Source of the DNA: Hylemonella sp.
GTDB taxonomy: Bacteria; Pseudomonadota; Gammaproteobacteria; Burkholderiales; Burkholderiaceae_C
Assembly (NCBI GenBank): GCA_030680575.1
Contig: JAUXVI010000046.1
Coordinates: 1-64,000 of the forward strand
DNA: 64,000 nucleotides
Reading direction: 5' to 3'
Shown: piece after piece, positions 7,090 to 55,463 of the stretch
Layout of the letters: each line of letters begins with the position of its first letter
Position numbering within the stretch: position 1 is the stretch's first letter
Notes under the pieces: generated by a model
What the model was told of the DNA's origin: nothing
Databases searched by the model: none
Seen by the model: the letters and a program-made list of their open reading frames with translations, nothing else
Program-made: the position numbers and the translations under genes

Positions 7090-8216
7090 AAGCGGTCTCG
7101 CCCCGAAATCCGGGCCAAGATGCGCAAATCCGGGCCGATCATGGCCGTTTCGCGGAATTCCAGCTCAATCGCTTGCGACAGCTCGGCCAGGGGGCCGATG
7201 TTGACCATGCCACGCCCGGCACCCAGCAGTTTGGGCGCCAAGTAGAGCAGGAACTCATCCACCAGTCCTTCGCGCACCAGGGAGCCGTTGAGCTTGTGGC
7301 CGGCTTCCACGTGGACCTCGTTGATCTCGCGTGTGGCCAGGTCACGCAGCATGGCAGCCAGGTCCACCTTGCCTTCGGTGCCCGGCTGGCGGCCGGGGCA
7401 ATAAACGACGGTGGCGCCGCGTGCTTCTAGCGCCGCTTTTTTGGCGTCGTTTGGCACCGCAGCATAGAAGGTGATTGCGCGGCCTGCTATGAAAAGATGA
7501 GCGTCCAGCGGCGTTTCCAGCCGGCTGTCCACCACCACCAGCTGGGGCTGGCGCGGTGTGTCCACCTCCCGCACGTCCAGCCGCGGGTTGTCTTCCAGCA
7601 CCGTGCCGATGCCGGTCAGCACGGCACAGGCGCGGGCCCGCCAGGCGTGGCCGTCGGCGCGGGCCGGCGCAGAGGTGATCCACTGGCTGGTGCCGTTTTC
7701 CAGCGCCGTCTGGCCGTCCAGCGAGGCGGCCATCTTCATGCGGACCCAGGGTGTGCCGCGCACCATGCGGCTGAAGAAGCCAATGTTGAGTTCGCGCGAT
7801 TCGGTCGCGCCTGGGCCCACTTCGACCTCAATGCCGGCGGCGCGCAGCCGCTCGAAACCCTTGCCGCCAACCTTGGGGTTGGGGTCGGTCAGAGAGGCCA
7901 CCACTTTTTTGATGCCGGCGGCGATCAGGGCGTCGCAGCACGGGCCGGTGCGGCCCTGGTGGGAGCAGGGCTCCAGCGTGACATAGGCGGTGGCACCCGC
8001 CACGTTGTTGCCGCGGGTTTCTGCATCGCGCAAGGCCATGATCTCGGCATGCGGGCCGCCGGTGCGCTGGGTGGAGCCGGTGCCCAGCAACTGGCCTTCG
8101 GCAGAAACAATGACGCAGCCAACACGCGGGTTGGGGGGCGCGAGCATGAGCGCTATACGGGCTGCATCGAGCGCGTCGCGCATGGGGTGGGGCAGGGTGT
8201 GTATCACGTCAGGCAA
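7086..8216 (-). CDS. ribD: Bifunctional diaminohydroxyphosphoribosylaminopyrimidine deaminase / 5-amino-6-(5-phosphoribosylamino)uracil reductase
   Basis: RibD carries out the second and third steps of riboflavin synthesis. The N-terminal deaminase domain (about 1-145) shows the zinc site HAEIMAL and EPCSHQGRTGPC. The C-terminal NADPH-dependent reductase (about 150-376) begins VRMKMAASLDGQTA and includes WITSAPARADGH and the EAGHKLNGSL substrate loop. Length (376) is normal. The last codons GRDRF are followed by a TAG that lies inside the terminal repeat of the adjacent 272-bp element. The reading frame also carries one copy of the 17-nt interspersed core (7486-7502). Confidence 0.95.
   Translation of the reverse strand: MPDVIHTLPHPMRDALDAARIALMLAPPNPRVGCVIVSAEGQLLGTGSTQRTGGPHAEIMALRDAETRGNNVAGATAYVTLEPCSHQGRTGPCCDALIAAGIKKVVASLTDPNPKVGGKGFERLRAAGIEVEVGPGATESRELNIGFFSRMVRGTPWVRMKMAASLDGQTALENGTSQWITSAPARADGHAWRARACAVLTGIGTVLEDNPRLDVREVDTPRQPQLVVVDSRLETPLDAHLFIAGRAITFYAAVPNDAKKAALEARGATVVYCPGRQPGTEGKVDLAAMLRDLATREINEVHVEAGHKLNGSLVREGLVDEFLLYLAPKLLGAGRGMVNIGPLAELSQAIELEFRETAMIGPDLRILARISGRDRF
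7486..7502 (+). repeat. Interspersed 17-nt core repeat, copy 1 (in ribD)
   Basis: GCTATGAAAAGATGAGC fits the shared pattern GCTAY-N7-RKAGC only loosely in its right arm. It lies inside ribD, where the minus strand encodes part of a loop following LETPLDAHLF. It is one of seven copies in the window. Confidence 0.5.
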
Positions 8217-8237
8217 CGCGAAGCAAAGATGGGGAGC

Positions 8238-8804
8238 TTAGCAGCCCGTGGTTCCAACTTTGCAGGAGCGGATGCGCCCAGCGGGGTCGATGATGATCTT
8301 GCTGGATCGAGTCGCGTTTTGCATGACCAGGGTGCCACCACCGAATCCTCCATTGTTCAAGCGAGGGTAGCCGCTGCCGTTGAACAGCAGATAACCGTCA
8401 GCGAGGGAGCTGGCGGTTGGGGTGGTGACAGTAACGTCAGAACTCAATGCCTCATGGCGAACCACCACGTCATCTGTACCGACATCAAAAGACTGGTTCC
8501 AGTTGGTATCGGTGTACACCATCCAGCCCGAACTCCAGCCGGTGCCGGCGGTGTTTGGGACGACGTAGGTGTTGAGCCCGCGTTTCATTGCATTGGCTTT
8601 GGCTGCATTGGCTGCAGCGAGAAAATTGCTGACGGCATCCGACAGATTAGCATTGCGCTGGAATTCGACAAAGCTGGGAACGGCTACCACCATCAGGACA
8701 ACCGCAATGGTGATGGTGACGATCAGCTCGATCAGGGTAAATCCAAGCTGCCGTGCAACGCCAGTCTTGCGCTGAGTCTGACGTGTCCAGTGAAGATGGC
8801 GCAT
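8238..8804 (-). CDS. fimT: FimT/GspH-family type IV pseudopilin
   Basis: The 188-residue protein has a basic leader ending in G, then the prepilin cleavage and helix motif GFTLIELIVTITIAVVLMVV, with the conserved Glu at +5. It is a minor pseudopilin of the GspH/FimT type, expected to be cleaved and methylated by PilD and to help prime pilus assembly. The C-terminal part has a beta-rich domain with two cysteines near the end (SCKVGTTGC), probably a disulfide. It is the last gene of the minor-pilin operon, 6 bases after pilE; in Pseudomonas fimT comes first. Composition is less GC-rich than neighbouring core genes. Confidence 0.82.
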   Translation of the reverse strand: MRHLHWTRQTQRKTGVARQLGFTLIELIVTITIAVVLMVVAVPSFVEFQRNANLSDAVSNFLAAANAAKANAMKRGLNTYVVPNTAGTGWSSGWMVYTDTNWNQSFDVGTDDVVVRHEALSSDVTVTTPTASSLADGYLLFNGSGYPRLNNGGFGGGTLVMQNATRSSKIIIDPAGRIRSCKVGTTGC

Positions 8805-8810
8805 GACAGT

Positions 8811-9302: not shown

Positions 9303-9315
9303 GATCCAGCCTCAG

Positions 9316-17636: not shown

Positions 17637-17653
17637 CCCCCGTCAAGCGGGGG
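17637..17653 (-). promoter_or_regulatory. Expression-platform hairpin of the glyA riboswitch
   Basis: A 6-bp perfect stem (CCCCCG at 17637-17642 with CGGGGG at 17648-17653) follows the aptamer directly. Four T residues occur about seven bases after it on the minus strand. It could be a weak intrinsic terminator or a stem that controls access to the glyA start. Its first arm touches the 3' end of the aptamer, as expected for a switching helix. The mechanism is inferred. Confidence 0.5.
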
Positions 17654-17777
17654 CTGCCCAGGCGAACGGCTGAACACAGAAACCGTGGAGGTTCTGCGGC
17701 ACGCTCCCTTGTGGTGTCCCACGTCAGCGCTGCCAACCCCGGGAGGGTGGCGCGCCTATCGCCAGTCGCGTGCCCCT
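17652..17777 (-). promoter_or_regulatory. ZTP (pfl) riboswitch upstream of glyA
   Basis: Read on the minus strand, the leader contains the conserved blocks of the pfl/ZTP aptamer in the correct order: GCGACTGGCGATA near the 5' end, then GTGGGACACCACAAGGGAGCG, and finally CGCCTGGGCA at the 3' end. The last is the most diagnostic element, part of the pseudoknot and ligand pocket. ZTP/ZMP accumulate when 10-formyl-tetrahydrofolate is short, and the riboswitch then turns on one-carbon and purine genes such as glyA. The coordinates are approximate. The gene context (directly before glyA, about 40 bases from its ATG) strongly supports the call. Confidence 0.92.
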
Positions 17778-17828
17778 CAAGTGTAGCTGACGGGCGGGGC
17801 TGACGCTGGCAGCCGCCCCTGCAAAGCT

Positions 17829-23135: not shown

Positions 23136-25757
23136 GTGAACTCCTCCGTGCCTGCCAAACCGAACGACCTCCAACAACTTGACGCCCTCACCGGTGGCGC
23201 ATTCTCTGCGGCCACCTCCGGCGAACGCGCGGCGCGCGTGCGCGAGTGGCTGGCCAGCGAGCCCGAGCCCGAACAGCTGCAGGCGGTTTTCAAGGAACTC
23301 AGCGTGAAGGACAAGGGCGCGGCCAAACTGCTTCGCGAGCGGCTGGACGACATCCGCCGCGCCAAGGGGCAGGAGGCGATGGCGACCGAGTGGGCGGCCA
23401 AGGCGCAGGCGCTGCTTGAGGCCGGCAAGCTCAATATCGCCGACGCCCTGGCCTGGCAGCGCGATGCCGCCAAAGCGGGGGCGCCGCTGAGCCGCGAACC
23501 CTTGGCCGGCCTCAAGGTGCAACTGGCCGAGCGGGTCAAGGTGATCGAAGATTTGCAGCATCGTGTGCAGGTGCAGCGCGAGGCGGCGGTGCTGCTGGCG
23601 CAGCGCATCGAGGTGCTGTCCACCAAGTCGTGGAAGGACGCCCAGGCCGCCGCAGACGCCTTGCGTACCGACGTGACCAACTGGCAGCAGCAGGCGGCGG
23701 CTTTGCCGGGTGATGCCAGCTGGGCCAGCGTCGATGCGCGTTTTCCGCCGCAACTGGAGACCTCACGCGGGCAGCTGACGCTGGTGTGGGAGGCGTTCAG
23801 TGCTGCGCTGGCGCAGGCGGTTTCGGCCGCAGCCGATCCGGCGGTGGCCTTGCCGCAAGTGCCGGTGTGGGCCGATGAGTTGCGCCAGGCACGCGGCCTG
23901 CCCGCCGAAGCGGCGCCGCAGCCGGTCAAACCGAAAGTTGACCCTCAAATCCGTGCCCAGGCCACGTCCGCCGTGCGCGAGGCGCTCTCAAAACTGGAGC
24001 AGGAAGTGGCTGAAGGCCACGGCAAGGCCAGCACCGGTGCGGCCGCCAACCTGCGCCAGGCGCTCAAGGAACATGGCCGCCACATCGACGACGCGCTCGA
24101 CAAGCAGGTCCATGCGGCCCTGGCCGCGGCCGGCGAACTCGAAGGCTGGCAGCGCTGGCGCGCCGACCAGCTGCGCGAGGAACTGGTGGGCAAGGCCGAA
24201 GCCTTGCTGAACCGGCCCGAGGGCCAGGCCCTGGGCGGACGCAAGATGCAGGAAACCCTGCGCGCCCTGCGCGATCAGTGGAAACAGACCGACCAGGGCG
24301 GTGTGCCCAACCACGCGCTGTGGAAACGCTTCGACGAAGCCTGCAACCAGGCGCACAAGGTGGTCGAGGCCTGGCTGGACAAGGTTCGGGCCGAGGCGGC
24401 CGAACACCGGACCCAGCGGCTCGCGCTGGTCGAGGAACTCAAGGCCTGGGCGGCGGCGAACCCGACCGCAGCCGGCGATGACTGGAAGGGCTTCAGCCGC
24501 GCGCTGCATCAGTTCGCCGAGCGCTGGCGCGAAGCCGGCCACCTGAGCGAAAAGGCCTTCTCCGAGCTGCAGCCGTTGTGGAAGTCCGCCATGGCGGCGG
24601 CCAGCGCACCGCTGGAAGCGGTGCAAAAGGCGAGCCAGCAGCGCCGCCAGGCCATGATCGAAGAGGCGGCGGTGCTGGGCGCGGCGCCCGTGTTGCGCAT
24701 CGACGCCGTCAAGGCCTTGCAGCAGCGCTGGCAGGCCGAAGCCCATGCCGTGCCGATGGAGCGCCGTCATGAGCAAAAGCTCTGGGATGCCTTCCGCAAG
24801 CCGATTGACGAAGCCTTCAACCGCAAGACGGCCGAGCGCGAGAAGGTCTCCAGCGCCATGAGCGAGCGCGACCGCCACGTGATGGAAGCGGCCAAGGCGC
24901 TGGAAGCGGCCAATGCCGGTGGTGATGCGCAGACCATCCGGGCTGCCATGAACGCGTTGGAGAGCGCGCTGCGCGCCTCCGAGGGAGCGCCTATTTCAGA
25001 GGAAAAACAGGCTCAAGCCCCCGTGGAATCTGCGCCAGTAGCTACAGAAACAGGAGCGGAGGAGGCCCCGGCCGAAGCCGCTGCGCCTGTTGCTGAGCCG
25101 GCCAAGCCGCGCAAGCCGGTGGTGGCCGTGCGTGGTGACGACCGTCCCGGCATGAAAAAGGCCGAGCCGGCAGCACCGGCCGGCCGAGGCCGGCCCGGCG
25201 AGCGGCGCGAGGGGGGGCGTCGCGATGAGCGTGGAGCCGATCGCGGCGCGGAACGCGGCGGCCGACGCGAACCCTTGCGCGAGTCCTACCGTGATCAGCC
25301 GCGTCTGGGCGATGCGGCTTTCCGTGCCCAGCGCGAGGCGCTGGAACATGCGCAGATGGCGCTGAAGAAGCTGGCGGCTCAGGCCCATGGCGAGTCGTTG
25401 ACGCATCTGCTCTCAGCCTGGGAGCAGCGCGATGCCAGTCAGTTGCCGACAGTACAGGAGTTGGGCAGCCGGGTCACGCCGGCGGTGCGCACCTTGTGGA
25501 GCCAGGCCTTGTCGGCAGCGGCTTCCGGCGAGGCTGCCACCGCCTTGCTGCGGCTGGAGATCGCGGCCGAGGTGCCGACACCGGCGGCGGCGCTGGATGC
25601 ACGCCGTGCCCTGCAACTGCAGTTGCTCACCAAGCGCAATGATCCGACGCCGGTACAGACCTGGGGCCAGGATACGGCGCGCGTGCTGGGCGCGGCCTTC
25701 GAGGCTGAGCAGGCGCGGCGCCTGCAGAATGCCCTGAAGGTCTTGTTGCGTCGCTGA
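23136..25757 (+). CDS. DUF349 domain-containing protein
   Basis: An 873-residue, alanine-rich, mostly helical protein starting at a GTG (23136). Several DUF349 repeats, defined by spaced tryptophan and aromatic residues, are visible: LRDQWKQTDQ...LWKRFDEACNQAHK (about 370-410), then FAERWREAGHLSEKAFSELQ, and LQQRWQAEAHAVPMERRHEQ. A low-complexity Glu/Ala/Pro linker (about 620-690) and an Arg/Gly-rich patch (REGGRRDERGADRGAERGGR) separate these from a C-terminal helical domain. The linker contains one copy of the 17-nt core repeat. DUF349 proteins are poorly characterised, and I do not assign a function. The neighbours are unrelated. Confidence 0.8.
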   Translation: MNSSVPAKPNDLQQLDALTGGAFSAATSGERAARVREWLASEPEPEQLQAVFKELSVKDKGAAKLLRERLDDIRRAKGQEAMATEWAAKAQALLEAGKLNIADALAWQRDAAKAGAPLSREPLAGLKVQLAERVKVIEDLQHRVQVQREAAVLLAQRIEVLSTKSWKDAQAAADALRTDVTNWQQQAAALPGDASWASVDARFPPQLETSRGQLTLVWEAFSAALAQAVSAAADPAVALPQVPVWADELRQARGLPAEAAPQPVKPKVDPQIRAQATSAVREALSKLEQEVAEGHGKASTGAAANLRQALKEHGRHIDDALDKQVHAALAAAGELEGWQRWRADQLREELVGKAEALLNRPEGQALGGRKMQETLRALRDQWKQTDQGGVPNHALWKRFDEACNQAHKVVEAWLDKVRAEAAEHRTQRLALVEELKAWAAANPTAAGDDWKGFSRALHQFAERWREAGHLSEKAFSELQPLWKSAMAAASAPLEAVQKASQQRRQAMIEEAAVLGAAPVLRIDAVKALQQRWQAEAHAVPMERRHEQKLWDAFRKPIDEAFNRKTAEREKVSSAMSERDRHVMEAAKALEAANAGGDAQTIRAAMNALESALRASEGAPISEEKQAQAPVESAPVATETGAEEAPAEAAAPVAEPAKPRKPVVAVRGDDRPGMKKAEPAAPAGRGRPGERREGGRRDERGADRGAERGGRREPLRESYRDQPRLGDAAFRAQREALEHAQMALKKLAAQAHGESLTHLLSAWEQRDASQLPTVQELGSRVTPAVRTLWSQALSAAASGEAATALLRLEIAAEVPTPAAALDARRALQLQLLTKRNDPTPVQTWGQDTARVLGAAFEAEQARRLQNALKVLLRR
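25041..25057 (+). repeat. Interspersed 17-nt core repeat, copy 2 (in DUF349 gene)
   Basis: GCTACAGAAACAGGAGC, preceded by GGAATCTGCGCCAGTA, which closely matches the DNA before the hpnE copy (GGAATATGCGCCAACC on the minus strand). It falls in the low-complexity linker of the protein. Confidence 0.5.
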
Positions 25758-27405: not shown

Positions 27406-27915
27406 TCAGGCCAGAGCGGTGGCCTTCTCGATCACCACGTCCTCTTTCGGCACATCGCCGTGGTAGCCCTTCTGGCCCGTCTTGACGGCGGCGATCTTGT
27501 CGACCACGTCGGTGCCGGCGACCACCTTGCCGAACACGGCATAACCCCAGCCCTGGGCGGACGGTGCTGTGTGGTTGAGGAAGCCGTTGTCAGCCACGTT
27601 GATGAAGAACTGTGACGAGGCCGAGTGCGGGTCGTTGGTACGGGCCATGGCAATGGTGTACTTGTCGTTCTTCAGGCCGTTGTTGGCCTCGTTCTCGATC
27701 GGCTTGTCGGTCGGCTTCTGGTTCATGCCGGGCTCGAAGCCGCCGCACTGGATCATGAAGCCGGGGATGACGCGGTGGAAGATGGTGTTGTCATAGTGGC
27801 CCTTGTTGACATAGGCCAGGAAGTTTTCCACCGACTTCGGCGCCTTGGCGGCGTCGAGTTCGAGCGTGATGGTGCCGAGGCCGGCGATCTGGAGTTCGAC
27901 TTGGGGATTGCTCAT
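27406..27915 (-). CDS. ppiB: Cytoplasmic cyclophilin-type peptidyl-prolyl isomerase
   Basis: A 169-residue cyclophilin without a signal peptide. Active-site elements are visible: [16 protein letters not shown] (with the catalytic arginine), [19 protein letters not shown], and the tryptophan-containing [12 protein letters not shown]. It catalyses cis-trans proline isomerisation during protein folding. It follows a second, exported cyclophilin (ppiA) after only 12 bases, and the two are clearly paralogous. Confidence 0.95.
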
Positions 27916-27927
27916 GATGATGCTTTC

Positions 27928-28512
27928 TTATTTCAGCAGGGTCGCCGACTTGATGAGGATGGGGGTAAGCGGTACGTTCTGGTGCATGCCCTTGTTGCCG
28001 GTGGGGCTGGTGCGAATCTTGTCGACCACGTCCATGCCGGAGACGACCTTGCCGAACACGGCGTAGCCATAGCCGTCGGGCATGGGGGCATTGAGGCCGC
28101 GGTTGTCGACCACGTTGATGAAAAACTGCGCCGTGGCGGAATTCGGGTTGCCGGTGCGCGCCATGGCGATGGTGCCGCGATCGTTCTTCAGGCCGTTGTT
28201 GGCCTCCAGTGGGATCGGGTCACGCGTGGGCTTTTGCTGCATGTCGGGGGTGAAGCCGCCGCCCTGGATCATGAAGCCGTCCATCACGCGGTGGAAGATG
28301 GTGCCTTCATACTGGCGCTCGGCCACGTACTGCAGGAAGTTGGCCACGGTCTTGGGGGCCTTGTCCGGGTAGAGCTCCAGCACGATGTCACCCGCGCTGG
28401 TGGCAAGCGCAACGCGCGGCGCCGACTGGGCGATGGCCGTGCCGTGCAGCAACACAGCCGCGGCGCCAGCCAGAAAAATACGGCGCAGGAGGGAGGAGGG
28501 CTGGGAGGTCAT
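27928..28512 (-). CDS. ppiA: Periplasmic cyclophilin-type peptidyl-prolyl isomerase
   Basis: I start at ATG 28512 (MTSQPSSLLRRIFLAGAAAV), overlapping the stop of the L,D-transpeptidase gene as ATGA; this gives 194 residues. The N-terminus is a clear Sec signal peptide ending AIAQS, so the enzyme is exported. The cyclophilin core carries IFHRVMDGFMIQGGGF, AMARTGNPNSATAQFFINVV and [16 protein letters not shown]. The tryptophan of PpiB is replaced by tyrosine at the equivalent site. It probably assists folding of periplasmic or outer-membrane proteins. Confidence 0.92.
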   Translation of the reverse strand: MTSQPSSLLRRIFLAGAAAVLLHGTAIAQSAPRVALATSAGDIVLELYPDKAPKTVANFLQYVAERQYEGTIFHRVMDGFMIQGGGFTPDMQQKPTRDPIPLEANNGLKNDRGTIAMARTGNPNSATAQFFINVVDNRGLNAPMPDGYGYAVFGKVVSGMDVVDKIRTSPTGNKGMHQNVPLTPILIKSATLLK

Positions 28513-29747
28513 CCGAGGTTGCCTTCGTAAAAAATCTTCCACTGGCTGCCTTCGCGAATCCAGTACTGTCGTTTGGTCGGGCCGGTGCGCGTGCCGTCGG
28601 GCACTTCGCCAAAGGTCACGACCATGGTGTCGGCGGCATCGGTCCAGCGCAGGTAGGACAGGTCCTTCAGCTGGATCGGCCGGCCCTTGACGCGATCGAC
28701 TTCGCTGCGCAGGGACGGTGCCCACTCGCGCAGGGTCTTGCCGTTGCTGTTGAAGTCGGCCGTGTAGAAGCTCAGCAGCTGATCGATGTTGCCGCTGGAC
28801 TTGGCGTTGCGCCAGGCGGTCAGGGCCTCTTCGAAGGGTTTGCTCTGGGCGCGGGTGCTGTGCGGAGCCACCCAGTCCAGCTTGTGCGAAATCACCACCG
28901 GCGTGGTGCGGACTTCGACGGTGCGGATGAGGCGGTCCAGATCGGGGTTGGCCAGCACGACACAGCCATCCGAGGCCAGCGGCGGGCGAGAAAACTGGTT
29001 GGGCGGCGTGCCGTGCAGCCAGATGCCGCGGCCGGTCTTGCCGCGCTTGCTGTCCAGCACGTTGGGGTAGTTGATCGGCAGGGCGCCCGTGCCGTAGAAG
29101 TCGCGCAGCGACTTGGGATCGAGGTTGCTGGTGATGAAGTACACGCCCAGCGGCGTGCGTGCATCGCCTTCGACCGCCTTCTCGATGCCGGACTTGCCCA
29201 CCGAGATGTAATAGTCGGCCACCAGGTTCAGACCGCGCTCGCTGTTTTCGAACAGGTACAGGCGCGAACGCGAGGCATCCACCGCAATGGCGTGCTTATT
29301 GCGCGGCGACAAGGCCAGGAACTGCGAAGGGATGGTGCCGGCTGGCGGCCGCTCGCGCAGGGCCTTGAGCCGCATCTGCGATTCGTCACGCAACTCGGCC
29401 AAGCCGGCGCTGTGGGCCAGAATTTCGGGCACATCACCGAACTTGCGCAGCGCACGCGTGCGCGAGGTCAGCAGATCGCCATAGACCAGCTGGGCCAGCT
29501 GGAAGTTGGGGTAGTCACGCACCAGGCTCTCGGCCCGTGCCAGTGCTTCGCGCGTCTTGCCATGGCCGGTCAGGCGGTAGACCTCGATCAGCCGGGCTTC
29601 GGCCACGCCATCGTTGGTGGTGGTGTTGCGGGCAGCGGGGGCGGCAGCGTTGGGTTTCTGGCTTTTTTTGCCGTTGTCGGCGCTTGCCGGCGCTGTGAAC
29701 AGGCCGGTGGCAGCAATGAGCAAAAACGCTAAAAATCCTTGGGTCAT
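28509..29747 (-). CDS. L,D-transpeptidase (YkuD) with C-terminal NTF2-like domain
   Basis: A 412-residue exported protein: signal peptide (about 1-23, ending PASADN), a helical TPR-like region (about 45-130), and the YkuD catalytic domain (about 150-290) with IWLHGTP and SDGCVVLANP, where C262 is the nucleophile. The C-terminal about 110 residues form a SnoaL/NTF2-like (Cds6-like) domain. The enzyme is expected to make 3-3 peptidoglycan crosslinks or attach proteins to peptidoglycan. It is followed by ppiA with an ATGA overlap, and preceded 61 bases upstream by a TPR protein with a related C-terminal domain. Confidence 0.88.
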   Translation of the reverse strand: MTQGFLAFLLIAATGLFTAPASADNGKKSQKPNAAAPAARNTTTNDGVAEARLIEVYRLTGHGKTREALARAESLVRDYPNFQLAQLVYGDLLTSRTRALRKFGDVPEILAHSAGLAELRDESQMRLKALRERPPAGTIPSQFLALSPRNKHAIAVDASRSRLYLFENSERGLNLVADYYISVGKSGIEKAVEGDARTPLGVYFITSNLDPKSLRDFYGTGALPINYPNVLDSKRGKTGRGIWLHGTPPNQFSRPPLASDGCVVLANPDLDRLIRTVEVRTTPVVISHKLDWVAPHSTRAQSKPFEEALTAWRNAKSSGNIDQLLSFYTADFNSNGKTLREWAPSLRSEVDRVKGRPIQLKDLSYLRWTDAADTMVVTFGEVPDGTRTGPTKRQYWIREGSQWKIFYEGNLG

Positions 29748-34142: not shown

Positions 34143-35093
34143 ATGAGCAAGACGCTGGCGCAAGCTATGGGCGAGTTCGAGCCCGGTTTGCCGCTGGCGG
34201 TGGCCTACAGCGGCGGTGCCGACTCCACCGCGCTGCTGCTGGCCTGTGCCGAAAAGTGGCCGGGCCAGGTCTGCGCCTTCCACGTCCACCACGGGCTGCA
34301 GGCGGCAGCCGACACCTTCGAGCAGCACGGCCGCGAGTTCTGCGCGCGCCTGGGCGTGCCGTTGCGGGTGAGCCGGGTCGATGCGCGCCATGCCCCAGGG
34401 GAGAGCCCGGAGGCGGCCGCGCGCCATGCGCGTTACGAGGCTTTTCGGGTCCTAGCCCAGGAAGATATTGCGCCAGGCGCTATCAAAAACATAGCGGTTG
34501 CGCAGCAGGCGGATGACCAGGTCGAGACCCTGCTGCTGGCGCTGAGCCGCGGCGCCGGCCTGCCGGGCCTGAGTGCCATGCCGGCCGAGTGGGTGCGTGA
34601 TGGCCTTCACTATTTCCGGCCACTGCTCGATGTGCCCGGGGCCGAGCTGCGCCACTGGCTGCGCGAGCGTGGCGTGGCCTGGGTCGAGGACCCGACCAAT
34701 GTCGACGAAAAGTTCACACGCAACCGCATCCGCGCGCGCCTGCTGCCGGCCCTGGCTGACACCTTTCCCCAGTTCCGCGACACCTTGGCCCGCAGTGCGG
34801 CCCATGCCGCCGAAGCACAACGGCTGCTGAACGAGGTGGCGCTCGACGACCTGACACACACCGGCCTGCCACCGCAGATCGCCCGCCTGCAGGCCTTGAG
34901 CCGGGCGCGCCAGGCCAATGTGCTGCGTCACTGGTTGCGCAGCGCGCACGGCACGGTACCCAGTGCCGCCCAGCTGCAGGAGCTGCTGGACCAGGTGGCC
35001 GCCTGCACCACGCGCGGCCACCGCATCCGCCTTAAGGTCGGTGCCGGCTTTGTCGAGCGGCAGGGCGCAGTGCTGACTTGGTACAATCCCTAG
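34143..35093 (+). CDS. tilS: tRNA(Ile)-lysidine synthase
   Basis: TilS modifies C34 of the tRNA-Ile CAU anticodon to lysidine so that AUA codons are read as isoleucine. The 316-residue product holds the N-terminal ATP-pyrophosphatase domain (PP-loop SGGADS at residues 23-28) and a short linker domain with EDPTNVDEKFTRNRIR. The C-terminal domains of longer orthologues are missing. The second ATPase motif, usually HxxDD, reads AQQADDQ at 120-126, with glutamine replacing histidine. A 17-nt interspersed core repeat (34479-34495) is inserted immediately before this motif. The gene is probably essential, so I assume it is active. Confidence 0.9.
   Translation: MSKTLAQAMGEFEPGLPLAVAYSGGADSTALLLACAEKWPGQVCAFHVHHGLQAAADTFEQHGREFCARLGVPLRVSRVDARHAPGESPEAAARHARYEAFRVLAQEDIAPGAIKNIAVAQQADDQVETLLLALSRGAGLPGLSAMPAEWVRDGLHYFRPLLDVPGAELRHWLRERGVAWVEDPTNVDEKFTRNRIRARLLPALADTFPQFRDTLARSAAHAAEAQRLLNEVALDDLTHTGLPPQIARLQALSRARQANVLRHWLRSAHGTVPSAAQLQELLDQVAACTTRGHRIRLKVGAGFVERQGAVLTWYNP
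34479..34495 (+). repeat. Interspersed 17-nt core repeat, copy 3 (in tilS)
   Basis: GCTATCAAAAACATAGC is the most symmetrical copy: GCTAT and ATAGC are inverted repeats around seven bases. It is preceded by GGAAGATATTGCGCCAGGC, matching the upstream segment of the DUF349 and hpnE copies. In tilS it encodes AIKNIA, just before the AQQADDQ motif. Confidence 0.6.
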
Positions 35094-44932: not shown

Positions 44933-45798
44933 ACCCCACTTCGAATTACCTAACGCTGGCCGGCCGCGAGATCCACTACATGGCGTGGGGCGCACCGGAT
45001 GCCGAGCCGGTGATCGCCTGGCATGGCCTGGCGCGCACCGGGCGCGACATGGACGAACTGGCCGAACACCTCAGTGCCCAAGGCTACCGCGTGATCTGCC
45101 CCGACACGCTGGGCCGCGGCTTGAGCCAGTGGAGCCCGTTGCCGCAGCAGGAGTATTGCCTGGCGTTTTATGCGCGCCTGGCGGCCGCGTTGTTCGAGCA
45201 GTTGAAGATCGAGCGCGCGCACTGGGTCGGCACCTCCATGGGCGGTGCCATCGGCACGGTGTGCGCCTCGGGCCTGTTCCAGCCGCAGCTCAAGGCACGC
45301 ATCCGCAGCCTGGTGCTCAACGACAACGCGCCCGAGCTGGCCGCAGCGGCTATCCACCGCATCCGTGCTTATGCCGGCAACCCGCCGGCGTTCGAGACGG
45401 TGTGCGAGCTGGAGGCCTTCTTCCGCCAGGCCTACAAACCCTACGGCTGGCTCAGCGACGCGCAGTGGCGCCGCCTGACCGAAACCTCCACCCGCCGCCT
45501 GCCCAATGGCCGTGTCACGCCGCATTACGACCCGGCCATGGTGCAGCAGTTCGAACACCACCCCGACGACTACCTGATCTGGGACCATTACGAGCAGGTC
45601 GATATCCCGGTGCTGCTGCTGCGCGGTGTCGAGTCCGATCTGGTGTTGCCCGAGACGGCTGCGAAGATGCAGACCTGCGGCCCGGGCCGACGCGGGCAGT
45701 TGCAGGCGATCGAGGTGCCTGGCTGCGGCCACGCGCCGGCGCTTAATGTGCCGGCCCAACTCGACGCCGTACTGGACTTCATCCGCCGCGCCGACTGA
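44929..45798 (+). CDS. Alpha/beta-fold hydrolase in the transporter operon
   Basis: I start at ATG 44929 in the ATGA overlap with livM, preceded by CAGGAGG; the product has 289 residues. The catalytic triad is visible: nucleophile in WVGTSMGGAIG, aspartate in LLRGVESDLVLP, and histidine in VPGCGHAPAL. The oxyanion region is WHGLARTGRDMDEL. The tight coupling to the transporter suggests that it hydrolyses an ester, amide or ring-cleavage product derived from the imported compound. The substrate cannot be inferred. Confidence 0.85.
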   Translation: MNPTSNYLTLAGREIHYMAWGAPDAEPVIAWHGLARTGRDMDELAEHLSAQGYRVICPDTLGRGLSQWSPLPQQEYCLAFYARLAAALFEQLKIERAHWVGTSMGGAIGTVCASGLFQPQLKARIRSLVLNDNAPELAAAAIHRIRAYAGNPPAFETVCELEAFFRQAYKPYGWLSDAQWRRLTETSTRRLPNGRVTPHYDPAMVQQFEHHPDDYLIWDHYEQVDIPVLLLRGVESDLVLPETAAKMQTCGPGRRGQLQAIEVPGCGHAPALNVPAQLDAVLDFIRRAD

Positions 45799-45895
45799 CG
45801 CTGCGGTGACAGGCCTCGCGGCGGGCCGCCGCGGTGATGCGATCTTGGCTTGGCACAATGCAGGCTCGATTCATGAAGAACAACGAGGAGCAGGC

Positions 45896-46534
45896 ATGGC
45901 CTTGACGATCTACGGCATCATCGCATCGCGCGCGTTGCGTCCCCTGTGGGCGGCGACCGAACTGGGGCTCGATTTCGAGCATGTGCAGACCGACTACAAG
46001 CTCGGCACCACGCGCGCGCCGGAGTTCCTGGCGATCAACCCCAACGGCCACATTCCGGTCCTCGTCGACCACCGGCCCGAAGGCGACGTGACGGTGTGGG
46101 AGAGCATGGCGTGCGCGCTCTACATCGCGCGCCACCACGGCCAAGCTGACGGGGTGAGCCTGGTGCCGGCCACGCCGCGCGAGGATGCCGAGGCGCTGCG
46201 CTGGAGCTTCTGGACCGTGACCGAGTTGGAAAAGGACGCGCTCACCGTGTTGATGCACCGCTTGGCCATGCCGGCCGAGGAGCGCAAGCATGATCTGGCC
46301 GAAGCGGCCGAACGGCGCCTGAAGGTCCCGCTGCGCGTGCTGGAGCAGCATCTGGCGCGCGGCGAGGGCTTCATCGCGGCCGCGCGTTTCACGGTGGCCG
46401 ACCTGTGCGTGGCCAGCGTCATGCTGTGGGTGAAGCCGGCACGCGAACTGCTGGCGCAGCACCCGTTGGTCAGTGCCTGGCTGGCGCAGTGCCTGGGGCG
46501 GCCAGCTTATGAAGCGCTGCGGCGCCATCGCTAG
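45896..46534 (+). CDS. Glutathione S-transferase family protein
   Basis: I start at ATG 45896, with GAGGAG just upstream (212 residues); the longer open frame overlaps the hydrolase. The N-terminal thioredoxin-like domain has the cis-proline element NPNGHIPVL and the glutathione-binding VWESMACALYIA. The C-terminal helical domain ends with FTVADLCVASVMLWVKPARE. It follows the hydrolase after about 100 bases on the same strand and may belong to the same catabolic unit, though a separate promoter is possible. The reaction is unknown. Confidence 0.85.
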   Translation: MALTIYGIIASRALRPLWAATELGLDFEHVQTDYKLGTTRAPEFLAINPNGHIPVLVDHRPEGDVTVWESMACALYIARHHGQADGVSLVPATPREDAEALRWSFWTVTELEKDALTVLMHRLAMPAEERKHDLAEAAERRLKVPLRVLEQHLARGEGFIAAARFTVADLCVASVMLWVKPARELLAQHPLVSAWLAQCLGRPAYEALRRHR

Positions 46535-46583
46535 AAAGCTCAAGCCAAATTGGCCTGAAGTCCTTGCTGCTTATGCGTCAGCA

Positions 46584-46600
46584 GCTACTGAAATAATAGC
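46584..46600 (+). repeat. Interspersed 17-nt core repeat, copy 4 (intergenic)
   Basis: GCTACTGAAATAATAGC lies in the 76-base convergent spacer between the GST gene and hemH. This copy is intergenic and includes a longer upstream part (GCTCAAGCCAAATTGGCC ... TTATGCGTCAGCA) that matches segments near other copies, so the whole unit is probably about 60 bases. Confidence 0.6.
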
Positions 46601-50892: not shown

Positions 50893-50958
50893 TTGCAGAC
50901 GGTTATGACGTGGTGGAACTCAGGCGATTGTGCGTGACTTGTGCGGGGGCGTCCATGG

Positions 50959-52266
50959 TCAGCGTTGGGGGTGCTGCAGGCCCGCGACTGCCTGCAGGCC
51001 GCTGCGCACTGCGCCCTCCAGTGTGGCCGGGTAGGGCCCGGCCACATAGTCGCCGCAGGCCAGCAGGCCGGGGGCGATGTCCTGCCGTGGTCGTTGCAGG
51101 CCCGGCGTGCAGGCGAAGGTGGCGCGTTTTTCCACCACGGTCTGCACCGGTTGCAAGGTCAGACCCAATTGCGCGCCGGCCTGGACCAGCACCTGGTCTT
51201 GCAGCACATCGCGTTCCGCGTCGCTGGCGCTGACGACAAAGGCCAGCAGGCCTGCGGGGCCGCCGAGCTGGCCGCGGTCGAACACGAACTGCGCCGGGGC
51301 TGCTGTGCTGCTGCGCAAAGTCAGCATGGGGGCTGCCAGGCGAGCGTTGTCGCCCCAGGCGTAGACGGTGGTGATGGCTTCATAACGCAGTGCTTGGGCC
51401 GTGGCAGCCCAGCGGGTCATGCTGTTTGCTATCGAATCAGGAGCGGTTGGCGCATATTCCATAAGGAGACGGGCCGATTCTGATGCCGAAGCGGCGAGCA
51501 GGACGGCATCGAAAGGTTCGCCGTTGACATGCCACTGGGGGCTTTGCGCCTGAATCTGTGTGACGCGAGTCCCCGGTCGCACCGCACCGCCGTGCTGCTG
51601 CAGCCAGCTTGCGGCAGCGGCGGGGAACAGGGCCGAGAGATCCTGCCGCGGCAGCAGCAGGTGCGAGCCGCCCGGGATGCCGAACAGCGCGTCCTGCAGC
51701 ACGCGCAGGAACACCTGGGCGCTGGCCTGCGCGGCCGGCGTGTTGAGGGCTGAGACGCACAGTGGTTCGATCAACTCCTGCAGCACCGGCGGTGCCAGGC
51801 GCTGGCACAGCTGCGCCACCGACAGCGCGGGGGCGCACTGGAAACCGGCCATCTGCCAGCGCAAGGCTTCGCGCAGCAGGCCCCCGCGTGCGCCCAGCGG
51901 CCAGCCGCGTGCCCGCGCAATGCCAACGAAGGCATCCAACGGTGTCGGCAGCCATGCGGCGTGCGGGAATTGCAGGCCGGCGCCGTCGGGAAAACGCAGC
52001 GTCAGCGGCAGACGTAGCAAGGCTAGGTCTGGGTCGACGCCCACAAGGCGCATCAGGCGCAGCGAATCGGTGTAGGCGCCGATCAGGATGTGCTGGCCGT
52101 TGTCGAGGGTGACTTCGCGTCCGTCGGGCAGCGTGCCCGGCACGGCGCGAGCGCGTCCACCCAAGGTGCGGGCGGCTTCGAACACCGTGACCTGGTGGCC
52201 GTCGCGCGTGGCTTGCACCGCGGCGGCCATGCCGGCCCAGCCGGCGCCGATGACGGCCAGTTTCAT
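50959..52266 (-). CDS. hpnE: Hydroxysqualene dehydroxylase HpnE
   Basis: HpnE reduces hydroxysqualene to squalene in the three-enzyme bacterial squalene pathway. The start at ATG 52266 gives 435 residues. The N-terminal FAD-binding motif is MKLAVIGAGWAGMAAAVQAT, followed by FEAARTLGGRARA. The C-terminal flavin motif is GLLACGDYVAGPYPATLEGAVRSG. The amine-oxidase/phytoene-desaturase-like body carries LIEPLCVSALNTPAAQAS. Gene order hpnC-hpnD-hpnE supports the call. A 17-nt core repeat (51428-51444) lies inside the frame. Confidence 0.92.
   Translation of the reverse strand: MKLAVIGAGWAGMAAAVQATRDGHQVTVFEAARTLGGRARAVPGTLPDGREVTLDNGQHILIGAYTDSLRLMRLVGVDPDLALLRLPLTLRFPDGAGLQFPHAAWLPTPLDAFVGIARARGWPLGARGGLLREALRWQMAGFQCAPALSVAQLCQRLAPPVLQELIEPLCVSALNTPAAQASAQVFLRVLQDALFGIPGGSHLLLPRQDLSALFPAAAASWLQQHGGAVRPGTRVTQIQAQSPQWHVNGEPFDAVLLAASASESARLLMEYAPTAPDSIANSMTRWAATAQALRYEAITTVYAWGDNARLAAPMLTLRSSTAAPAQFVFDRGQLGGPAGLLAFVVSASDAERDVLQDQVLVQAGAQLGLTLQPVQTVVEKRATFACTPGLQRPRQDIAPGLLACGDYVAGPYPATLEGAVRSGLQAVAGLQHPQR
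51428..51444 (-). repeat. Interspersed 17-nt core repeat, copy 5 (in hpnE)
   Basis: The plus strand reads GCTATCGAATCAGGAGC. By its flank it is oriented on the minus strand: GGAATATGCGCCAACC precedes the core there, closely matching the flank of the DUF349 copy. It encodes part of MEYAPTAPDSIANS. Confidence 0.55.
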
Positions 52267-52339
52267 CACGGTTTCGCCGCCGGGCCGCCAGCGCGGTGAA
52301 ATCCGCGCTTCGCACGGACGGGCGAAATGCGGCCCCAAG

Positions 52340-52411
52340 CCCAAGCAAAGCGCAGGGCAAGCCTGCGCCTGGGGGCAGGGAGCCACACGCAGTGGGCGAC
52401 CGTGGGGGTCA
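52340..52411 (+). repeat. Dispersed GC-rich spacer repeat between hpnE and hpnD
   Basis: The spacer ends CACGCAGTG (52386-52394) ... CGTGGGGGT (52401-52409), the same pattern as before livH. Its right tip overlaps the hpnD stop codon (TGA on the minus strand, 52411-52409). The 142-base spacer holds no other recognisable feature. Confidence 0.55.
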
Positions 52412-53248
52412 TAACCTGCCTAAAGCCTGCACGCGCCAAGCCAGCCAGAGCTTGCGCAGCGGTGTGAGGCTGATGCGCTGGTGCAGCACCTGGAAGTTGT
52501 CGCGCTCGATCTCGCGCAGCAGGGTGCGGTAGATGCTGGCCATCATCAGGCCGGGTTTTTGCGCGCGCCGATCGCTCTCGGGCAGCAGGGCCAGCGCTTC
52601 GTCGTACAGGCGGTGGGCGCGCTCGGCCTGGAACTTCATCAGGGCAGTGAAGCGTTCAGAATACTGGCGTTTCAACAGCTCGTGCGCCTTGACGTCGAAC
52701 TGCTGCAGCTCGCTCACCGGCAGATAGATGCGACCGCGCAATGCGTCCTCGCCGACGTCGCGGATGATGTTGGTGAGCTGGAAGGCCTGGCCCAGCGTGT
52801 GGGCGTACTCGGTGGTCTGTGCCTGTGTCTGGCCGAAGATGCGCGCGGCGACTTCGCCCACCACGCCGGCCACCAGATGGCAGTAGCGCTGCAGGGCCGG
52901 GTAGTCGAGGTAACGCGTCTGCTGCAGGTCCATCTGGCAGCCTTCGATGACAGCCAGCAGGTGGCGCGACTCGATGCCGTGGTCGGCGGCCAGCGGCATC
53001 AGCGCCTGCGTCACCGGGTGGGTGGACGCGCCGGCGTAGGCGCGTGCCACCTCGGCCTGCCACCAGGCCAGCTTGGTCTGTGCCACGCCGGGGTCCGTTA
53101 CCTCGTCCACCACGTCGTCGACCTCGCGGCAGAAGGCATAAAAGGCGGTGATGGCGGCGCGCCGCGGTTTGGGGAGAAAGAGAAAGGCGTAATAGAAGCT
53201 GCTGCCCGAGGCGGCGGCTTTTTGCTGAACGTACTGCTCTGGCGTCAT
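52409..53248 (-). CDS. hpnD: Presqualene diphosphate synthase HpnD
   Basis: HpnD condenses two farnesyl diphosphates to presqualene diphosphate. I start at ATG 53248 (MTPEQYVQQKAAASGSSFYY), giving 279 residues; the 17 codons of open frame upstream belong to the spacer. Both aspartate-rich motifs of the squalene/phytoene synthase family are present: FCREVDDVVDEV and QLTNIIRDVGEDALRGRIYL. The FYYAFLFLPKPRRAAITAFY opening is typical. It lies 34 bases after hpnC. Confidence 0.93.
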   Translation of the reverse strand: MTPEQYVQQKAAASGSSFYYAFLFLPKPRRAAITAFYAFCREVDDVVDEVTDPGVAQTKLAWWQAEVARAYAGASTHPVTQALMPLAADHGIESRHLLAVIEGCQMDLQQTRYLDYPALQRYCHLVAGVVGEVAARIFGQTQAQTTEYAHTLGQAFQLTNIIRDVGEDALRGRIYLPVSELQQFDVKAHELLKRQYSERFTALMKFQAERAHRLYDEALALLPESDRRAQKPGLMMASIYRTLLREIERDNFQVLHQRISLTPLRKLWLAWRVQALGRL

Positions 53249-53282
53249 GGGCTTGATTGTCGCTGCATCATGGGGGTCTGCT

Positions 53283-54161
53283 TTACATCCAGATCGCACG
53301 CCACAGCATCACGGCCCCATCCCAGGGTTTCAAGGTGGGCCGGGTCTGCAGCGTGGCGTAGTTCAGCGCCTCGATCTTGTCCAGGATGCGCAGGCCGCCT
53401 TGCACCACCAGGCGCAACTCCCAGCCGGCGCGGCCTGGCAGGTGGTGCACGAGTTCGGTGCCTTTTTGCATCATGGCCCTTGCTATCTGTGCCTGAGATG
53501 CTATCAATTGGGTAGCGTTGGGCGTCTGCTGCAAGGCCTGCAACTTGGCGCGTGTGACGCCGAACGCCAGGCAGTCGGCATCGGGCAGGTAGTGGCGGCC
53601 GCGCGGGATGTCGCGGCTCAGGTCCTGCCAGAAGTTGATCAGCTGCAGCGCGGTGCAGATGGCGTCGCTCTGACGCAGCGCAGCCTCGTCCTGAACACCG
53701 TAGAGGTGCAGCAGCAGGCGGCCCACCGGGTTGGCCGAACGGCGGCAGTAGTCCAGCAGTTCGGTCTGGTCGGCATAACTGGTCTGGGCGCTTGTTTTGC
53801 GCACGTCCTGCGTGAAGGCGTCGAGCAGGTCGGCCAGCAGCGGCACCGGTAGATGAAAGGCCTGCAGCATGGCCCGCAGCGGGTCGAACACCTGCGGCCA
53901 GCGGCCGCTGTGCGGCAGACCGGTAGCCAGGGCTTGCAGATCGGCGTGGTAGGCGGCCAGGTCATCCAGCCGCTGTTGCGCCGGGGCATCACCTTCGTCG
54001 GCAATGTCATCGGCGGTGCGGGCGTAGTGGTAGATGGCGGCAATCGGCGCGCGCAGCCGGGGCGGGCAGAGCCAGGAGGCCACGGGAAAGTTCTCGTAGT
54101 GCTCGATCGGCTGGGGAGCGGGGAGGGTGTTCACGCCGGGGATTGTCGCCCAGGCATGCAA
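53283..54161 (-). CDS. hpnC: Hydroxysqualene synthase HpnC
   Basis: HpnC converts presqualene diphosphate to hydroxysqualene. The 292-residue product shows the synthase motifs YHYARTADDIADEGD and QLINFWQDLSRDIPRGRHYL, and opens ENFPVASWLCPPRLRAPIAA, typical of HpnC. The start at 54161 (MHAWATIPGV) is one option; a GTG ten codons in (VNTLPAPQPIEHYENF) is another. It heads the hpnC-hpnD-hpnE operon. A 17-nt core repeat (53500-53516) lies within the frame, encoding part of NATQLIASQ. The squalene-hopene cyclase gene is not in the window. Confidence 0.92.
   Translation of the reverse strand: MHAWATIPGVNTLPAPQPIEHYENFPVASWLCPPRLRAPIAAIYHYARTADDIADEGDAPAQQRLDDLAAYHADLQALATGLPHSGRWPQVFDPLRAMLQAFHLPVPLLADLLDAFTQDVRKTSAQTSYADQTELLDYCRRSANPVGRLLLHLYGVQDEAALRQSDAICTALQLINFWQDLSRDIPRGRHYLPDADCLAFGVTRAKLQALQQTPNATQLIASQAQIARAMMQKGTELVHHLPGRAGWELRLVVQGGLRILDKIEALNYATLQTRPTLKPWDGAVMLWRAIWM
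53500..53516 (+). repeat. Interspersed 17-nt core repeat, copy 6 (in hpnC)
   Basis: GCTATCAATTGGGTAGC, with CTTGCTATCTGTGCCTGAGAT upstream on the same strand. It sits on the strand opposite to the hpnC coding direction, inside the C-terminal third of the gene. Confidence 0.55.
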
Positions 54162-54181
54162 TGAATCTCCCCAACTCTGGC

Positions 54182-54210
54182 TTGACAGGAAAATGCCTTT
54201 GTTCTAGATT
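54182..54210 (+). promoter_or_regulatory. Strong sigma-70 promoter of the RND efflux operon
   Basis: A consensus -35 TTGACA (54182-54187) is separated by 17 bases from TAGATT (54205-54210). Transcription would start near 54217, within the palindrome that follows. This is the best sigma-70 match I found in the window. Confidence 0.85.
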
Positions 54211-54228
54211 ACTAACCAATTGGTCATT
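54211..54228. promoter_or_regulatory. Palindromic operator, probably for a TetR/AcrR-type repressor
   Basis: ACTAACCAATTGGTCATT is a near-perfect palindrome (7 of 9 half-site matches, with a perfect ACCAATTGGT core). It lies directly after the -10 element and over the presumed start site, an ideal position for repression. RND pump operons are often controlled by TetR-family repressors with such sites. No tetR gene is adjacent, so the regulator is unlinked. Confidence 0.7.
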
Positions 54229-54254
54229 AATTATTGATTTACATCAGGTCGCCC

Positions 54255-55463
54255 ATGTTTTCTTCCCATTTTTCCGGACCCCAGACCCCGCGCTTGGCCT
54301 TGCTGCTGGCCGTTGCTGCTGCCTCCACCGCCTTGCTGGCGGGCTGCTCCCGTCCGGCGCCGGCCGAAGAGCCGGTGCGCTCGGTCAAGGTGCTGACGGT
54401 GGGCGCCGGCAATATGCAGTCGGCGCTGGAGTTCTCGGGTGACGTGCGGCCGCGTATCGAGTCGCGCCTGGGCTTTCGCGTGGCCGGCAAATTGACCAGG
54501 CGTTATGTGGAACTGGGCCAGCGGGTCAAGGCCGGTCAGGTGCTGGCGCAGCTCGACCCGCAGGATTACCAACTGGCCGCCGATGCGGCGCAAGCGCAAC
54601 TGGGCGCCGCCGTGACCAACCGCGACCTGGCGGCAGCCGACTTCAAGCGCTTCAAGGAATTGAAGGAACAGAACTTCATCAGCGGTGCCGAGCTGGAGCG
54701 GCGCGAGGCCACACTCAAGGCGGCGCAGGCCCAGGTTGACCAGGCCAGGGCTCAGCTGTCCACGCAACGCAACCAGGGGGCTTACACCACACTGGTGGCC
54801 GACGCAGCGGGTGTGGTCACGGCCGTCGAGGCCGAACCCGGCCAGGTGGTGAGCGCCGGTTTGCCAGTGGTGCGGGTGGCGCAGGACGGACCGCGTGATG
54901 CCGTGTTCTCGGTGCCGGAAGACAAGGTGGTCGCCGTGCGGCCGGGGTCGGCGGTTGCCGTGCGCGTCTGGCCCGGCCAGACGCTGCTGGACGGCAAGGT
55001 GCGCGAAGTGTCGGCCAGTGCCGATCCGGTGACGCGGACCTACCAGGTCAAAGTGGGGCTGGAGGTGAAGGACGCGAAGGAAGTGCCGCCGCTGGGCGCC
55101 ACCGTGACGGTGCTGCCACAGGCGCAGGACGTGCAAAGCGCGCCAGTGATCAAGCTGCCCACCAGCGCGCTGCGCCAGGAGGGGCAGACCACGGCGGTCT
55201 GGGTGCTCGACCCCGCCAGCATGACGGTGAAGTCGCAGCCGGTGCAGATTGCCACGGCCGACGGCAACGAAGCCGTGGTGGCCAGCGGCCTGCAGCCCGG
55301 CACGCTGGTGGTGGCTGCTGGTGTGCATGTGCTGTCACCCGGTCAGAAGGTCATGATTTACCAGGAAAAAACGGTCAAATCCCTTGCCAGTACGGCGCAA
55401 ACAGCTATCAATTCAGTAGCATCCCCGGCGCCGATGCAGGCCGCTTCCGCAAATGGCAAGTGA
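54255..55463 (+). CDS. RND efflux transporter periplasmic adaptor (MFP) lipoprotein
   Basis: I start at ATG 54255 (MFSSHFSGPQTPRLALLLAV; 402 residues) rather than at a TTG at 54234. The signal peptide ends in the lipobox LLAGC, so the protein is anchored to the membrane by lipid. The adaptor architecture is clear: lipoyl halves (FRVAGKLTRRYVELGQRVKA and AGVVTAVEAEPGQVV), an alpha-helical hairpin (about 95-170), and a beta-barrel/membrane-proximal domain. It links the inner-membrane pump to an outer-membrane channel. The C-terminal tail holds a 17-nt core repeat. The stop overlaps the pump gene by 11 bases. Confidence 0.92.
   Translation: MFSSHFSGPQTPRLALLLAVAAASTALLAGCSRPAPAEEPVRSVKVLTVGAGNMQSALEFSGDVRPRIESRLGFRVAGKLTRRYVELGQRVKAGQVLAQLDPQDYQLAADAAQAQLGAAVTNRDLAAADFKRFKELKEQNFISGAELERREATLKAAQAQVDQARAQLSTQRNQGAYTTLVADAAGVVTAVEAEPGQVVSAGLPVVRVAQDGPRDAVFSVPEDKVVAVRPGSAVAVRVWPGQTLLDGKVREVSASADPVTRTYQVKVGLEVKDAKEVPPLGATVTVLPQAQDVQSAPVIKLPTSALRQEGQTTAVWVLDPASMTVKSQPVQIATADGNEAVVASGLQPGTLVVAAGVHVLSPGQKVMIYQEKTVKSLASTAQTAINSVASPAPMQAASANGK
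55404..55420 (+). repeat. Interspersed 17-nt core repeat, copy 7 (3' end of adaptor gene)
   Basis: GCTATCAATTCAGTAGC encodes AINSVA in the last 20 residues of the adaptor, beyond the conserved domains. The tail from VKSLASTAQ onward looks like inserted, non-conserved sequence. Confidence 0.6.

Follow-up and report, generated by a model that had tools for sequence, protein, structure and literature searches.

A ~64-bp Repeat in Genes of Hylemonella and Other Comamonadaceae: a Probable DNA Recognition Motif That Accumulates in Place

Introduction

The uptake signal sequences (USS) and DNA uptake sequences (DUS) with which some bacteria mark their own DNA have a core of 9–10 bp, recur about once per kb, and are present in more perfect copies than copies with one mismatch. 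USS are reported to arise by substitution and not by insertion (PMC1626085; PMC7811141), a conclusion that the first of these papers drew from the gap argument also used here, together with a strong consensus (PMC1626085), and A/T tracts with a narrow groove have been described in them (PMC7811141). DUS are located in the core genome with enrichment in genome maintenance, and it has been argued that many Neisseria DUS came from recombination rather than point mutation (PMC2397512). Repeats of another kind are the Rickettsia palindromic elements of ~150 bp, described as integrated (PMC10969869), and VeiPR1, which makes up 2.3% of the genome of Verminephrobacter eiseniae, a member of a genus described as near Acidovorax, and is reported from no other species (PMC3975124). 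This article concerns a repeat of ~64 nt in the genome of a Hylemonella sp. (assembly GCA_030680575.1), present in several copies, mostly inside protein genes, in the first 64,000 nucleotides of contig JAUXVI010000046.1, the whole stretch that was analyzed and is called the window hereafter.

Parts of this repeat family have very likely been published before. Section 13 of a 2017 paper gives, as unexplained, the motif pairs GCTTAT(N)5AAGCG in Acidovorax ebreus (114 copies, 94% intergenic) and ATAGCT(N)22CAAAAG in Polaromonas naphthalenivorans (125 copies, 81% intergenic), and Rhodoferax ferrireducens ranked first there in number of motif pairs (PMC5217627). Among 31 named loci of Acidovorax and Polaromonas, the matches of both published pairs fall inside copies of the present repeat (4 of 4 for Acidovorax, 1 of 1 for Polaromonas), and in 46 named loci that also cover Rhodoferax all five matches do so. 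The pairs differ from the unit described here in having been presented as separate, mostly intergenic motifs, and section 13 of that paper contains neither the whole unit nor its evolution within genes. In the open literature, no printed record was found of the whole unit, of its in-place form within genes, or of its on/off distribution, and no paper on an uptake sequence of Comamonadaceae was found.

The repeat is probably a recognition motif of ~64 bp, read as double-stranded DNA, which accumulates in place on the chromosome. Existing sequence, including the codons of core genes, would be driven toward the consensus by base changes, and the needs of the encoded protein would filter those changes.

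Form and Abundance of the Repeat

Forty-one aligned copies from the Hylemonella genome define a unit of ~64 nt with sharp edges, a WTT block at its start and TAGC at its end, beyond which base composition is flat. Within the unit the WTT block is followed by an AAA/TTT run, GGCC, AGCCCTTG, a fixed GCGC, and, at the 3' end, the core AGCTAY-N7-RTAGC; a preliminary description of the window, made from its sequence, had estimated 50–60 nt, which was nearly right. Four positions were occupied by A or T in 55 of 55 full-length copies, mostly as AAA or TTT runs, and a test of A/T content for helical periodicity yielded no distinct maximum (0.043 at 10.5, 0.064 at 11, and 0.072 at 8). The middle part varies by genus, with a consensus of AGCGCTTG in Acidovorax (10 copies) and AGCCC in Polaromonas (21 copies), differences that are somewhat like dialects.

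The family is real and not a chance pattern. In the window, the 17-nt core pattern GCTAYN7RKAGC matched 10 times, counting both strands of palindromes, where 0.26 matches were expected, and none of 100 shuffles reached 10. Across 3.42 Mb of the genome, an oriented pattern (GCGC plus core, with at most two mismatches) found 138 matches vs 0 + 0 for the backwards pattern, so that the genome scan proposed in the preliminary description as a check on chance frequency spoke for the family; its statement that both orientations occur also holds, with 69 matches on each strand. Counts of k-mers reflected parts of the motif weakly (TAGCTA 28 v 10.5, TATCAA 58 v 29.1) and no longer k-mer.

Profile searches covered the window and 357 kb of other stretches from the same genome, the latter picked for containing copies. 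They returned 57 copies of at least 16 bits, the best reversed-sequence control scoring 8.7 bits. Twenty of these copies were intergenic, 7 partly overlapped a gene, and 30 lay wholly in genes, according to gene calls made with our own codon-usage script and no standard annotator; one copy that the script called intergenic (L250 4335) sits in an apparent signal peptide. A second profile, built against circularity from 22 copies situated wholly or almost wholly in non-genic DNA, gave 17.6–50.1 bits to 31 of the 33 other full-length copies (best reversed control 7.3), the two low scorers being L248 5511 (9.2 bits) and window position 23937 (7.2 bits). Both strand orientations and both coding senses are represented, with 15 of 18 sense copies in phase 1 and 9 of 12 antisense copies in phase 0, and the consensus leaves those frames open. 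At L253 243–4969, three motif copies directly follow near-identical hairpin-plus-T stretches within 5 kb.

Origin of the Coding Copies

The copies in genes were compared with same-genus genomes that have no copies (G012, G015, and G018) or few (G013, 13; G009, 5). No gap column separated 10 of 15 coding copies from the majority of these element-poor relatives, and the largest gap was 27 of 64 positions. Insertion as a general origin is ruled out for most coding copies by this alignment of flanks to same-genus genomes. The preliminary description had pictured a small element that enters genes, and had itself taken gap-free orthologs as evidence to the contrary, which is what most coding copies have. 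Origin by substitution without a gap, as for USS and DUS, was found for most coding copies with the exception of two linker copies and an intergenic one, and the empty sites in relatives that characterize insertions of repetitive extragenic palindromes (REP), miniature inverted-repeat transposable elements (MITE), and Rickettsia palindromic elements were lacking for most of them.

Distant homologs extend the comparison for three genes. The mutL copy (9460) shows a length difference of 0 nt, four element-poor relatives keeping the 64-nt length, and its closest relative encodes the same AINSIADCAILSR in other codons; PDB 7p8v, which we take to be the MutL of Escherichia coli, aligns gaplessly through AINSIADCAILSRAEGQNNAY at this copy. 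The mutS copy likewise differs by 0 nt in relatives, and PDB 5x9w (MutS, presumably of Neisseria) aligns with one residue missing, while PDB 1ni5 (TilS) lacks 6 residues at the tilS copy. Because these homologs align with only 0, 1, and 6 residues missing, the mutL, mutS, and tilS copies appear to have been made in sequence that already existed.

Elsewhere, relatives were shorter by 0, 0–3, and 9–21 nt at the copies of the addA/recB-like gene, by 3–45 nt at a second mutL copy, and by 9–39 nt at a copy in an efflux adaptor linker. They differed by −9 to +3 nt at a copy in the lipobox of LolB and by 16–50 nt at a copy in a signal-peptide region, in the latter case spread over a long variable stretch, and comparisons with a single relative gave 3 nt for a histidine kinase copy and 9 nt for a response regulator copy. 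In other genera, solved homologs lacked 13 residues about the copy in pyruvate dehydrogenase E1 and 8 residues at the copy in an HI0933-like flavoprotein; the polA copy lay outside the aligned part, a methyltransferase-like protein was unaligned at its copy, and one protein had no match.

Base Changes Within Genes

For 16 coding copies, the closest element-poor relative was taken as the native state and the Hylemonella genome as the own state. Where native and consensus bases differ, the Hylemonella sequence agrees with the consensus at 111 of the 163 sites with a silent step and 123 of the 296 with a protein-changing one, whereas unselected controls, in which the consensus was slid over flanking codons, gave 226 of 2273 and 314 of 5743, respectively. 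Retention of the native base amounted to 17% at silent sites and 43% at protein-changing ones. Native bases are thus interleaved with those of the consensus and are often kept where a change would alter the protein, unlike in a patch that was copied whole.

The opposite polarity, in which the ancestor of the genus had motifs that the relatives lost, is likely for some copies because the core in mutS is nearly identical in all five genomes compared. Even with loss in relatives, the mutL and mutS copies would still need an origin that involves no insertion.

Distribution Among Relatives

An exact-pattern scan of named genomes gave matches in at least 119 stretches. Among the matches listed (80 titles) were Polaromonas, Rhodoferax, Acidovorax, Simplicispira, Giesbergeria, Curvibacter, and Xenophilus, along with a bin assigned to Rubrivivax and others labeled no further than Comamonadaceae, Burkholderiales, Burkholderiaceae, or a phylum or class of Proteobacteria, in agreement with the mention of similar repeats in Comamonadaceae in the preliminary description. 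A covariance model matched 47 of 120 genomes of the family, which represent 46 of 119 genera, many with at least 42 copies. Of the 26 genomes examined in the genus, 4 had at least 150 copies, eight had 29, 13, 11, 5, 4, 3, 1, and 1, and 14 had none. The distribution is patchy, on or off within one genus.

Candidate Readers of the Motif

The fixed half-sites GCTAY..RTAGC, the fixed GCGC, and the fixed places of A/T suggest that a protein reads the motif. The fourth and fifth bases of the core vary independently on the two sides, and protein half-sites therefore fit better than a hairpin. Covariation between stem pairs was also tested. In the Hylemonella copies, none of 29 tested pairs reached p < 0.05 (lowest 0.053), and a separate test of the copies found no covariation; among 202 copies from other genera, 4 of 29 pairs gave p values of 0.006–0.037, all of them small in effect and outside the core stem, an excess that could be an effect of pooled dialects. 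Rfam, at gathering level, identified two tRNAs and a ZMP/ZTP riboswitch in the window, with no match to a motif copy, and at E values up to 1 it gave one tRNA and two sub-threshold matches in L250, L253, and L259, all away from the copies. A hairpin is the less favored form. The runs of A/T at fixed places suggest recognition through the minor groove or through a bend.

The most likely candidate for the reader is the DNA-uptake machinery, which we propose tentatively; copies would then build up by biased uptake and recombination, as do DUS and USS. Uptake is favored over a reader inside the cell by comparison with USS and DUS, namely the gap test, spacing, A/T tracts, and, suggestively, gene classes. 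The motif shares with those sequences its occurrence in both orientations, its many copies in genes, and its uneven presence among relatives, and with USS its in-place origin and A/T tracts. Maintenance and uptake genes accounted for 5 of 27 bearing genes (addA/recB-like, dnaX, mutL, mutS, and comEC) vs 1 (recR) of 30 genes drawn at random from those that lack a copy, and those five hold 8 of the 30 copies lying wholly in genes. The libraries and limits used for naming differed in part between bearing and control genes; the excess in genome-maintenance genes, reported for the known systems, is only suggestive for the 64-bp motif. The competence gene surveyed, comEC, is present and open, and it bears a copy itself.

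Somewhat more tentatively, part of the Comamonadaceae may possess a further, independently evolved signal of self-DNA, in the form of a 64-bp uptake motif studded with A-tracts whose recognition is on or off between sister species. Such a motif would rewrite codons of mutL, mutS, dnaX, and comEC. If the repeat is an uptake signal, sequence-specific transformation would have originated anew in this family, which is common in water and soil, and comparison of motif-bearing with motif-free sister species could address the old question of what leads some bacteria to label DNA as their own.

Several results weigh against uptake or, more broadly, against accumulation in place. The motif differs from USS and DUS in being 64 bp long instead of having a core of 9–10 bp and in its relaxed consensus, since core copies in the Hylemonella genome comprise 19 perfect matches, 50 with one mismatch, and 69 with two, where perfect USS and DUS outnumber those with one mismatch. 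Its density, about one copy per 13 kb in the window and per 25 kb by the core pattern, is also 13–25 times lower than their ~1 copy per kb. Orientation is coherent within Hylemonella contigs (p = 0.004 for adjacency and 0.0002 for heterogeneity, with 99 copies, 100 of 138 having been listed and one palindromic duplicate dropped), while uptake predicts no such coherence. The excess of gene functions was not significant (one-sided Fisher ~0.07). In the substitution comparison, the ratio of silent to protein-changing steps (68 : 42) was no steeper than that of the controls (10 : 5), and the excess over controls is partly built in because the copies were picked for a good score in the Hylemonella genome. 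The relatives may also hold decayed copies, which makes the direction of change ambiguous site by site. Finally, the copies in the DUF349 and dnaX linkers (the latter 39–56 nt shorter in relatives) and the intergenic copy at 46537–46600 may be insertions. Membership is claimed neither in the class of USS and DUS nor in that of intracellular sites.

Alternative Explanations

Alternatively, a protein inside the cell, of the nucleoid, of segregation, or of repair, could bind the motif throughout the chromosome for upkeep or packing, the sites being kept by selection. We consider this role rather unlikely, although it accounts for the non-inserted form, the relaxed consensus, the A/T positions at fixed places, and the independent half-sites of the core. 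It would also accommodate the orientation coherence in Hylemonella contigs and the slightly regular spacing in the complete genome G101 of another genus, where the coefficient of variation was 0.84 v 0.99 and 2.9% of random sets were as low (109 of 148 copies). No clear orientation polarity was detected, however, in the complete other-genus genomes G101 (p = 0.09; 109 of 148 copies) and G128 (p = 0.40; 41 of 142 copies), presence or absence of the motif within a single genus sits oddly with a role in upkeep, and there is no candidate protein. If the repeat is a chromosomal binding site, it would be a code of unusual length superimposed on protein genes and recognizable from their codons; whether it is that or an uptake signal, a palindromic repeat that stays in frame within a gene is, contrary to a tempting interpretation, not necessarily mobile.

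A mobile palindromic repeat, akin to REP with their REP-associated tyrosine transposases (RAYT), to MITE, or to the Rickettsia elements, would have been inserted ancestrally, kept where its frame was open, and decayed in the relatives. The sharp edges of the unit, the intergenic position of 20 of the 57 copies, the phase bias with open consensus frames, and the residual cores in element-poor relatives, for example in mutS, are what such an element would leave. The intergenic copy at 46537, 58–74 nt longer than in three relatives, and the DUF349 and dnaX linkers, with differences of 36–56 nt, also conform to it. The Rickettsia palindromic elements resemble the motif as palindromic repeats with an open frame inside unrelated genes, and differ from its mostly non-inserted coding copies in being integrated and ~150 bp long; VeiPR1 is likewise an abundant palindromic repeat in a genus described as near Acidovorax, though reported from its own species only. 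Mobility is nevertheless improbable, being refuted by distant homologs for the mutL and mutS copies, with nearly no insertion in tilS, and at odds with the lack of a gap column in 10 of 15 coding copies.

Searches for the machinery and traces of mobility bear on the same question. Membership in the REP/RAYT group is ruled out, a PF01797 gene (Y1_Tnp), which we take to be RAYT, being present in 25 of 26 genomes of the genus whatever their copy number. The single such gene in Hylemonella lies in a 3.3-kb locus with no motif copy (best 4.3 bits). The transposase with matching ends anticipated in the preliminary description was not found, PF01797 being the only candidate family searched, and no target duplication was evident by eye in 18 intergenic copies. 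In insensitive searches with one consensus, 3 of 72,556 plasmid records and 1 of 50,697 phage records matched, the latter doubtfully, though 32 viral contigs contain the core and 25 of these score at least 18 bits by profile; some may be host DNA.

Replacement of short patches, in which single-stranded copies of the motif overwrite a stretch of similar length by gene conversion of an illegitimate or ectopic kind, may be likened to short-patch double illegitimate recombination (SPDIR), for which no paper was found in the open literature. It would explain why length is mostly conserved while the 64-nt patch changes, why identity to relatives at L248 3814 falls to 0.42 inside the motif v 0.78 in the flanks, and why 42% of protein-changing steps to the consensus were taken, and a recombination origin has been argued for many Neisseria DUS (PMC2397512). 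This is the least probable of the explanations, since changed bases are interspersed with native ones, 43% of protein-changing positions retain the native base, and a foreign patch would hardly be expected to spell the same residues in mutL as its closest relative.

Copies in the Window and Neighboring Features

The preliminary description had reported seven copies of the core in the window, six of them within reading frames; its labels ribD, hpnC, and hpnE for genes there are its own. Six of the seven sites fit GCTAYN7RKAGC and five are clear copies, four in genes whose frames stay open and one intergenic. Scores below are given first for the whole-unit profile, whose seed includes the copies with cores at 25041, 34479, 46584, 51428, and 55404, and then for the non-coding-only profile, which includes only that at 46584. 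The first clear copy (24994–25057, plus strand; 39.5 and 29.8 bits) lies in sense and phase 1 in the linker of a DUF349-protein gene (23136–25757; Pfam PF03993), where five relatives are 36–48 nt shorter and the more distant G003 and G007 are 57–69 nt longer. The tilS gene (34143–35093) bears a copy at 34432–34495 (plus strand, sense, phase 1; 38.8 and 29.1 bits) that overlaps the stretch RY..F..A....I.VA..ADDQ, with five relatives 6 nt and two relatives 12 nt shorter. The intergenic copy at 46537–46600 (plus strand; 44.8 and 45.7 bits), a member of both profiles, stands immediately beyond the gene at 45626–46534; G015 and G018 are 58 nt shorter there and G012 is 74 nt shorter, and G009 and G013 are rearranged.

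On the minus strand, a copy at 51428–51491 (sense, phase 1; 34.7 and 23.8 bits) lies in an amine-oxidoreductase gene (50959–52386; Pfam PF01593), the one labeled hpnE in the preliminary description, relatives being 6 or 33 nt shorter. The fifth (55357–55420, plus strand, sense, phase 1; 41.3 and 28.2 bits) lies toward the end of a gene for an RND adaptor (54234–55463; TIGR01730), where five relatives are 6–27 nt shorter over the whole tail; the 64 nt themselves show no gap column relative to most of these relatives. The remaining sites are weaker. One in the DUF349-protein gene (23937–24000, plus strand, phase 0; 16.5 and 7.2 bits) is doubtful, and five relatives show no length difference there. 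The core look-alike listed at 53500 (53450–53517, plus strand; 6.9–7.3 and 9.5–12.6 bits), whose core is kept in G002, was left out of the counts and is considered doubtful rather than excluded because the best reversed controls reached 8.7 with the first profile and 7.3 with the second. The site at 7486 reads GCTATGAAAAGATGAGC, which is outside the GCTAYN7RKAGC pattern, and with 2.8 and 4.7 bits it is no copy.

Other features lie near these copies or elsewhere in the genome. A second intergenic repeat of ~146 bp occupies window positions 52266–52413, and parts of it match many places in the same genus and one other place in the Hylemonella genome. At 6818–7089, two 29-nt arms that are 97% complementary and 214 nt apart end at the 3' end of the frame 7086–8216, and the 272-bp whole looks like a miniature inverted-repeat element. 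The ZMP/ZTP riboswitch identified with Rfam lies at 17649–17779 on the minus strand (54 bits), and two adjoining reading frames at 27406–28725 contain blocks of 74–76% identity, like tandem duplicates. Outside the window, a Cas1 gene is located at L248 10968–11897, and a CRISPR locus may adjoin the addA/recB-like and dnaX genes.

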